A stretch of DNA of 64,000 nt from Candidatus Roslinia caecavium. Lineage in GTDB: Bacteria; Bacillota; Clostridia; Monoglobales; Monoglobaceae. Below are positions 58,567-60,060 of this stretch, piece by piece. The notes below the pieces were generated by a model that saw nothing but the letters and a program-made list of their open reading frames with translations, made no database searches and was not told the DNA's origin. The number at the start of each line of letters is the position of its first letter. The stretch's first letter is position 1. The DNA is taken from positions 1 through 64,000 of the forward strand of contig CAJFTO010000011.1 in assembly GCA_904419955.1 (NCBI GenBank), read 5' to 3'. A program made the translations under genes and the position numbers.

Positions 58567-58630
58567 TATACGCCTGTTTTGTTTATATGCGGCGTATACA
58601 GATTATAACGTGAAAGTTCCTTTTACGTTA
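58567..58630 (+). promoter_or_regulatory. Inverted repeats at the start of the GNAT leader
   Basis: TATACGCC (58567-58574) and GGCGTATA (58591-58598) are perfect arms across 16 bases. A second stem TAACGTGAAA/TTTTACGTTA (58606-58615, 58621-58630, one G-U) follows. A TTGTTT and TATAAC lie between, 19 bases apart. The elements could be a merR terminator, an operator, or leader RNA. Confidence 0.45.
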
Positions 58631-58707
58631 GCCTCCGGCAGGATCAAAGCGCCCGCGCGAAATTTTCCTCACATGGTATGCTCGGAAACGCGCATGGGCG
58701 TAATGAT

Positions 58708-58770
58708 CTCTTATCATTCCTTGCCCTGCGGATAAGAGAGCTTTCATACCTATTTGCGCCGACGCAGGGC
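58708..58770 (+). other. Candidate H-type RNA pseudoknot upstream of the GNAT gene
   Basis: Stem 1: CTCTTATC (58708-58715) with GATAAGAG (58731-58738). Stem 2: GCCCTGCG (58723-58730, inside the first loop) with CGCAGGGC (58763-58770). Both are perfect 8-bp pairings, directly adjacent, with loops of 7, 0 and 24 bases, the geometry of a coaxially stacked pseudoknot. It ends about 20 bases before the ribosome site. No known riboswitch family was recognised. Confidence 0.5.
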
Positions 58771-58809
58771 GGCGTAATGGAGATTATTAGGAAAGGGGAG
58801 CGCTTTTAT

Positions 58810-59403
58810 ATGAGTTTTGCGTCTGAAATTAAGACGAAACGACTTATTTTGAGGAAATTCACAGCCGAAGACAAAGAGGCTCTGTTCGAGATCCTCAGCG
58901 ACTTAGAGGTAAACAGATTTCTGCCCTGGTTCCCTCTGCGTTCGCTAAGCGAGGCCGAAGAGTTTTTGGAAAGGGAATACCTGAGTTTTTACGCTAAATC
59001 CGAGGAGGGATATAAATACGCGGTGTGCGATATTGAAAGCTCGGCGCCGATCGGCTATTTGAATTTAAGCGGAGGAGAAAGCCGCGATCTGGGTTACGGA
59101 CTTAAAAAAGAGTTCTGGAATAAGGGAATAATAACCGAGGCGGCGACTGCGGCGATCGAATTGTTTAGAAGCGAGGGCGTCGGCTATATAACTGCGACGC
59201 ATGATATAAATAACCCGGCGAGCGGCAGGGTGATGCAAAAGATCGGTATGAAATATATGTATTCGTACGAGGAACTTTGGGAGCCTAAGGGGTATCCGGT
59301 AACGTTTAGAATGTATCAGCTCAATTTAAACGCCGAGCCGGATTGGGTATACATGGGATATTGGAATACGCGTCCGAAACATTTTATTGAGGAAAACGTT
59401 TAG
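58810..59403 (+). CDS. GNAT-family N-acetyltransferase (RimJ/RimL-like)
   Basis: 197 residues. Acetyltransf_3 layout: IKTKRLILRKFTAEDKEALF, then LEVNRFLPWFPLRSLSEAEEFL, the acetyl-CoA region GYGLKKEFWNKGIITEAATAA near 95-118 and THDINNPASGRVMQKIGMKYM. Relatives acetylate ribosomal proteins or small amines; the substrate is open. The frame extends to 58678, but GGGGAG lies about 10 bases before the ATG at 58810 and homology begins there. A structured leader of about 270 bases precedes it. Confidence 0.85.
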   Translation: MSFASEIKTKRLILRKFTAEDKEALFEILSDLEVNRFLPWFPLRSLSEAEEFLEREYLSFYAKSEEGYKYAVCDIESSAPIGYLNLSGGESRDLGYGLKKEFWNKGIITEAATAAIELFRSEGVGYITATHDINNPASGRVMQKIGMKYMYSYEELWEPKGYPVTFRMYQLNLNAEPDWVYMGYWNTRPKHFIEENV

Positions 59404-59472: not shown

Positions 59473-59544
59473 ATATAAAAAATCAAGCGCGTTTTGTTTA
59501 TTGGCGCGCGGCTATAATTATTTTTTGGGGCGGAGTTGATTTAT

Positions 59545-60060
59545 ATGAACAACAAAAGTAATCGTTATGGGATCGTAGACACGCGGAGTTTTATCAGAGC
59601 GTCTATGCTCGCGGCTTTGGCCTGCGTGCTTACGATGTTTCCACAGATACCTACGCCGACGGGCGGATACGTGCATTTCGGCGACTGTATAATATATCTT
59701 GCGTCCGCGCTTATGGGGCCGCTGTGGGGCGCGGCCGTCGGAGCGGTCGGGCATTCCGTCGCCGATATTATATCGGGACATGCGATCTTCGCGCTTCCGA
59801 CTTTTATCATTAAAGGTTTGGCGGGTTTTGCCGCCGGCAAGATCATGTACGGGCGCTTGAATAAGAAGAACTTCGTCCTTTCGGGTGTAGCGTGCCTTTT
59901 AATAGTGACCGTAGGATATTTTATAGCGGAGATCCCAATGTTTGGAGTCGAGGCCGCGGCCGTTTCTTTTATATCGTCTCCGGCGCAGTGGCTGATGAGC
60001 ATGGCGGCTTCGGTCATCATGATCCCCGCCGTGAATAAAATAGTCGGCGGCCGTATGTGA
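59545..60060 (+). CDS. ECF transporter S component (substrate unknown)
   Basis: 171 residues with about five to six membrane spans. The ARSFIRASMLAALACVLT-type start, FPQIPTPTGGYVHFGDCIIY, GPLWGAAVGAVGHSVADIISG and FALPTFIIKGLAGFAAG are typical of the PF07155-type vitamin-uptake substrate binders (for example pyrimidine or pyridoxine precursors). The ATPases and T component are not here, so it would share a common ECF module. The ATG at 59545 has CGGAG 9 bases ahead; a TTG at 59536 touches it and is less likely. Confidence 0.8.
   Translation: MNNKSNRYGIVDTRSFIRASMLAALACVLTMFPQIPTPTGGYVHFGDCIIYLASALMGPLWGAAVGAVGHSVADIISGHAIFALPTFIIKGLAGFAAGKIMYGRLNKKNFVLSGVACLLIVTVGYFIAEIPMFGVEAAAVSFISSPAQWLMSMAASVIMIPAVNKIVGGRM

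Follow-up and report, generated by a model that had tools for sequence, protein, structure and literature searches.

A mobile structured unit in ribosome-binding sites of Clostridia and its probable derivation from IS110-family transposons

The structured leader preceding a GNAT N-acetyltransferase gene of Candidatus Roslinia caecavium was analysed within a stretch of 64,000 nucleotides (contig CAJFTO010000011.1, positions 1 to 64,000; here called the window). The leader is the decayed relic of a non-coding mobile element of about 180 nt, which is polymorphic among close relatives and probably represents a non-autonomous derivative, resembling miniature inverted-repeat transposable elements (MITEs), of a clade of IS110-family transposons inserting into ribosome-binding sites (RBS). 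An initial annotation had proposed a compact ligand-binding leader of the GNAT gene, which is not supported in view of the presence of the same element upstream of unrelated genes, its polymorphism between close relatives, its exact tandem copies, and the sharing of both its ends with IS110 transposons.

Copies, insertion sites, and mobility

In a DNA search of the same genome, the 3' two thirds of the leader were matched 29 times; at least 26 of these matches are near full length, with identities of 81-93%, and several lie in exact tandem. Because contigs of this genome break off within copies, the actual copy number is probably higher. Relatives at the levels of family, order, and class carry the repeat as well. 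With a covariance model derived from 35 copies, 67 of the 291 Clostridia genomes sampled (47 of 181 genera) gave matches at E<=1e-4, the weaker ones including related types and copies of the insertion sequence (IS) end. In a phylum-wide sample, this genome alone was matched at E<=1e-12. The named carriers are metagenome-assembled genomes (MAGs) of Clostridia from gut and rumen.

As judged from copies aligned with their flanks, the unit extends from TAACGTG to GGCGGAATGGAGAT. When the flanks of copies were joined and searched in sister genomes, uninterrupted sites were recovered, such as GAGGAGTTGG-TATTATG (empty) versus GAGGAGTTGG-(TAACG...GGAGAT)-TATTATG (filled), or GAGGGA-TATTATG versus GAGGTA-(...)-TATTATG, and the element proved to be present or absent at loci sharing 90-97% identity between close relatives. 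It is inserted in one orientation into the spacer between the Shine-Dalgarno (SD) sequence and the ATG, with no target duplication beyond a putative TA core, and its terminal GGAGAT constitutes a replacement SD beside the ATG of the host gene. Among 59 non-tandem copies, 47 carry an SD-like sequence just 5' of the left end, at a spacing which is not constant, and in 55 an ATG-started open reading frame (ORF) with a length of 60 codons or more follows GGAGA at a distance of up to 18 nt. The genes downstream, whose names were assigned by inspecting their translations, are unrelated (era, rimM, rluD, rlmB, dapF, upp, trpF, atpC, HPr, and others). Degenerate copies have lost the upstream SD and kept that of the element; there is also a decayed remnant ending in GGAGATTATTATG, and in two other genomes a second complete copy has been inserted into the remnant.

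Structure and covariation of the unit

The two perfect interlocking 8-bp stems with a zero-base junction described in the initial annotation lie exactly where they had been placed. CTCTTATC (58708-58715) pairs with GATAAGAG (58731-58738), a stem extending to 9 bp (58707-58739), and GCCCTGCG (58723-58730) pairs with CGCAGGGC (58763-58770), the whole arrangement spanning 63 nt. Its view that such a pair is uncommon by chance is borne out by dinucleotide shuffling of 58567-58800, after which 5 of 5000 sequences contained a comparable one; for the leader's nested fold, z is -2.5. A second pairing of 10 bp, P6, connects 58701-58710 (TAATAATCTC) with 58780-58789 (GAGATTATTA); it spans the SD and the spacer, overlaps the 5' half of the pseudoknot stem, and has the TCTC motif in common with P4. 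The helix energies are -10.1 kcal/mol for P4, -15.9 for P5, and about -9 for P6. The features of the unit are as follows, with the numbers of pairs changed on both sides referring to an alignment of 102 copies.

58606..58784, + strand: whole mobile unit, TAACGTG ... GGCGTAATGGAGAT, from copies aligned with their flanks and from filled and empty sites in relatives
58606-58607 and, after the unit, 58785-58786, + strand: putative 2-bp core TA, from the same comparisons
58606..58616, + strand: left end and 5' arm of P1 (TAACGTGAAAG), by alignment the counterpart of the IS110 right end (TAGTGTGAAAG in L323 and Roseburia)
58620..58630, + strand: 3' arm of P1 (CTTTTACGTTA), complementary to the left end; 10 of 11 pairs changed on both sides
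58631..58636, + strand: segment G1 (GCCTCC), complement of SD-like left flanks, following the flank of each copy in permutations
58651..58699, + strand: hairpin P3 (GCCC GCGCG .. TTTCC .. GGAAA CGCGC AT GGGC), common to the terminator-sited B type (L203-L207); 12 of 14 pairs changed on both sides
58701..58710, + strand: segment G2 (TAATGATCTC), complement of the right boundary GAGAT-TA-TTA and 5' strand of P6, from covariation
58707..58739, + strand: pseudoknot stem P4 (58707-58715 with 58731-58739), rivalling P6 for TCTC; 99% of cells paired, 4 of 8 pairs changed on both sides
58723..58770, + strand: pseudoknot stem P5 (58723-58730 with 58763-58770); 6 of 8 pairs changed on both sides
58755..58784, + strand: right end (through GCCGACGCAGGGCGGCGTAATGGAGAT), matching the left end of the RBS-inserting IS110 clade in sequence comparison
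58779..58782, + strand: element-borne SD, GGAG, in nearly all copies, followed by the ATG-started ORFs counted above
58789..58791, + strand: site of the original start codon, now AGG instead of ATG, from comparison with other copies
58810..59403, + strand: GNAT N-acetyltransferase gene, with the start likely at 58810 behind AAAGGGGAG, or at the in-frame ATG 58777

The helices are certainly real, as established by covariation. The initial annotation had suggested looking for compensatory changes in homologous leaders, and these were found: in the 102-copy alignment, which was fitted to P1, P3, and P4 and not to P5 or P6, 95.8% of the cells are paired and 32 of 42 pairs show changes on both sides, a result equalled by none of 500 shuffles and in agreement with a MAFFT alignment (A1). 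P6 shows 36 doubly changed cells versus 10.6 expected. The proposed H-type pseudoknot with coaxial potential is therefore real and covarying. Rfam covariance models run against the window, the leader, and the related loci yielded no relevant class at gathering score and only chance matches at E<=10, so the structure belongs to no Rfam class; the initial annotation had recognised no known class either. Both additional stem-loops reported for the leader exist (58567-58574/58591-58598 and 58606-58616/58620-58630). The first of them, a separate 8-bp hairpin (TATACGCC/GGCGTATA, 58567-58598) located between a MerR-type gene and the element, is not included in the conserved unit and is no part of the repeat.

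In the window copy, the upstream SD has been lost, and the original start codon has disappeared as well. The description as a structured leader before a GNAT gene holds for the structure, but the leader proved to contain one copy of a repeat with a dispersed distribution. Downstream of the GNAT gene, positions 59536-60060 encode a substrate-binding (S) component of an energy-coupling factor (ECF) transporter (TIGR04002/folate-family ECF S, under the curated cut-offs).

Shared ends with IS110 transposons

The unit itself lacks a transposase ORF (DEDD plus Transposase_20) in its ~180 nt. A search of viral contigs with its right end retrieved two contigs with a common 1675-bp element, which has the same ends and codes for a transposase matching PF01548, PF02371, and NF033542. 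Both ends of the window element recur, in the same RBS context, in the autonomous IS110 elements L323 and L325, and the same two ends are present in an IS110 on a plasmid of Roseburia sp. 831b (WP_075680211.1), with a left end (LE) of ...GGCGGCGGAATGGAGATTATTATG and a right end (RE) flank of GGGAGAATCT. The left end of the unit, TAACGTGAAAG, compares with TAGTGTGAAAG in IS110, and its right end, GTGCCG..GGCGGCGGAATGGAGAT, is found in L323, L325, and the Roseburia element L399 (both ends matching) as well as in L341 (LE only). In related IS110s of the genomes G316, G221, G130, and G059, the LE likewise abuts a start codon, and the RE flank is SD-like where it was read (L323, L369, Roseburia), with the exception of L325, which has only AAGAAGA. 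The LE of these transposons also bears SD-like stretches (GGGGAGGTGAG, or GGAGGAG in the Roseburia type). Moreover, a 10-nt copy of the element's own start-codon/LE boundary recurs about 145 nt inside the LE in six of seven testable IS110s; the mean match to the own boundary is 8.1 (including one untestable element scored as 0), compared to 5.0 for swapped boundaries, as would be expected of the target guide of a bridge RNA. A clade of IS110 elements thus has ribosome-binding sites as its target, and the unit in the window is most simply regarded as its small derivative. Nothing on RBS-targeting IS110 elements or structured elements between SD and ATG was found in the literature searched.

Long elements of the same (A) type carrying an ORF were sought by the right-end pattern, which yielded none of them and only decayed remnants and C types. 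The latter (G293 and G150; loci L198-L202 and L305-L309) have both ends in common with the window element and a different interior of ~110-240 nt; an IS110 in G293 (L349) has a matching RE (TTTTTTCACGTTA). B types (L203-L207, L400) keep the layout of P1 to P3, differ in their ends, and are located directly 3' of intrinsic terminators, one of them behind a T-box terminator. Their P3 is nearly letter-for-letter identical to that of the window element in L203-L206, and a poly-A segment in the B types is complementary to the flanking T-run. One D type (L214) is alike in layout with different sequences, and a search for the P3 motif in viral contigs gave chance matches only. As separate observations, G221 contains four near-identical IS110 copies (L364, L367, L369, L370), three of which have a common unrelated upstream sequence in or near the LE, and another dispersed repeat, ~85 bp long and inverted-repeat-like (GGAAAGCTCTCTGTAAAATTCAAAATAATTTTT...), occurs in dozens of copies in G012, G016, G020, and G024 and was spotted upstream of L050/L176/L177.

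Guide-like segments, alternative explanations, and significance

Segment G1 complements the left end and the SD, while G2 complements the right end and the start-codon spacer, both of them being complementary to the gene-sense strand. Over 104 copies, a set which includes some overlapping loci of the same genomes and thus fewer independent cases, G1 fits the flank of its own copy at 3.17 of 7 positions versus 2.62 after permutation (standard deviation 0.117), a value reached in none of 5000 permutations; complete flank matches occur in L011, L101, L111, and L155. Because known seekRNAs have to fit both a new target and the sequences flanking the resident IS (PMC11187229), a guide role appears most likely for the interior, and the element likely carries a guide resembling a bridge RNA.

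In the mechanism we propose, the DEDD transposase of an IS110 would move the element in trans, presumably as a circle, always in the same orientation into the spacer that separates SD and start codon, and the GGAGAT end would leave the gene an SD by its ATG. G1 (facing SD, core, and left end) and G2 (facing right end, core, and start-codon spacer) would be held by P3 and the pseudoknot and most likely act as a compact bridge- or seekRNA-like guide choosing RBS sites. The pseudoknot would take up the strand otherwise masking the new SD, which should help the host gene to stay translated. A more far-reaching version, which we put forward tentatively and rate as somewhat short of an even chance, is a class of transposase-less, self-guided mini-IS110 elements, in which a compact RNA with P3 as scaffold and two boundary-spanning guides parasitises IS110 transposases and spreads RBS-restoring cassettes through Clostridia, with SD/start-codon spacers (A type) and terminator T-runs (B type) as reprogrammable targets.

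Several observations weigh against a guided IS110 derivative. The target guides of bridge RNAs pair with opposite DNA strands (PMC11208160), and the same-strand arrangement of G1 and G2 differs from this classical pattern. The match between G1 and the flank could instead come from templated correction of a quasipalindrome (hairpin), and the interior lacks homology to the LE RNA of IS110. The 3' flanks of some empty sites (TAATATG, CATTATG, TTCTATG) deviate slightly from a clean cut-and-insert event, which may reflect divergence between strains or the mechanism itself. Single-sided G-U and A-C changes, counted to find the RNA strand, favour neither strand (38 versus 28 in A1, with no clear bias, and balanced in the larger set A2). 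Finally, no transposase with matching ends was found in this genome (a draft of 94% completeness, whose sole IS110 has unrelated ends), and the g6 relatives that have polymorphic insertions yielded none above the cut-off. Repeats are frequently missing from MAGs, and an inserted copy does not require a transposase in the same genome.

The closest alternative is a MITE derived from IS110 for whose movement a full-length IS110 provides both transposase and bridge RNA, wholly in trans. Its interior would be no guide and would maintain hairpins, which might, for instance, reduce polar effects on the host gene. A mini-IS with an LE of 29 bp and an RE of 16 bp was moved when transposase and seekRNA were given (PMC11187229), so ends alone should suffice, and the different interior of the C types and the missing homology to the LE RNA fit as well. 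We nevertheless consider this rather unlikely, since the massive covariation of the interior, the fit of G1 to its own flank, and the reappearance of the P3 module in terminator-sited relatives with other ends suggest that the interior plays a part of its own in mobility. A riboswitch- or thermosensor-like translational switch, with P6 masking the SD and P4/P5 freeing it, would make use of the shared TCTC, the similar helix energies, and the conserved SD and ATG, and seems improbable in view of the unrelated housekeeping genes downstream, the presence/absence polymorphism, the tandem copies, and the decayed remnants; the equal decay into G-U and A-C also speaks against a regulatory role maintained at each gene and is what neutral decay of inserted copies predicts.

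Transposition via single-stranded DNA (HUH/Y1, IS200/IS605- or REP-like), with same-strand guides pairing with the left and right cleavage sites, would account for both boundary-complementary segments lying on one strand, the oriented insertion without target duplication, and the end hairpins. It is nonetheless very improbable: Y1_Tnp, considered as a mobility protein, is absent from this genome despite its copy number and shows no correlation in the family, the distance between SD and left end varies, and both ends match IS110. Least credible of all is a small self-splicing or reverse-splicing intron between SD and ATG, although its removal would exactly restore both and pairing resembling a guide crosses the right junction. 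Group I/II hallmarks and Rfam matches are lacking, no RVT_1 occurs in this genome as a mobility protein of a group II or other retroelement, and translation needs no removal in worn copies, which do without the upstream SD and keep that of the element.

Regarded as a derivative of RBS-inserting IS110 transposons, the element represents a novel IS110/MITE form, with a putative guide of its own. IS110 elements with bridge RNA such as IS621 (PMC11208160) resemble it in their ends, the oriented insertion without target duplication, the short core, and segments in the non-coding region that match target and donor, and its autonomous relatives encode the corresponding transposases (PF01548 plus PF02371, or NF033542). 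The window element differs in its small size, the missing transposase, an interior unrelated to the LE bridge RNA, guide-like segments on the same strand, and the SD/start-codon spacer as target class. The seekRNAs of IS1111/IS110 elements (PMC11187229) share the match of the guide to target and resident flanks and the compactness of the RNA (58-74 nt suffices), whereas the window element has no transposase gene and arranges its putative guides differently. QMITE1 and QMITE2 of Coxiella (PMC5896051) are likewise non-autonomous, structured multi-copy elements of ~150-400 bp, and QMITE2 is linked to the IS110-family element IS1111 as its insertion target. However, direct repeats are a feature of QMITEs, which are located in ORFs, 3' untranslated regions, or intergenic regions, whereas the window element lands in RBSs and has its own SD and a covarying pseudoknot. 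Riboswitches with an H-type pseudoknot and further translational switches share the pseudoknot near the SD and a mutually exclusive anti-SD pairing, but the window element is mobile, precedes unrelated genes, and has no Rfam match.

The results reveal a natural clade of RNA-guided transposons directed at a universal genetic signal, the spacer between SD and start codon, whose probable small derivatives multiply by the dozen and replace the RBS they disrupt. If the element indeed carries its own guide, it would be a very short natural relative of bridge and seekRNAs and useful toward both understanding and simplifying programmable recombinases. Such elements also explain dispersed "structured leaders" that can be mistaken for riboswitches.
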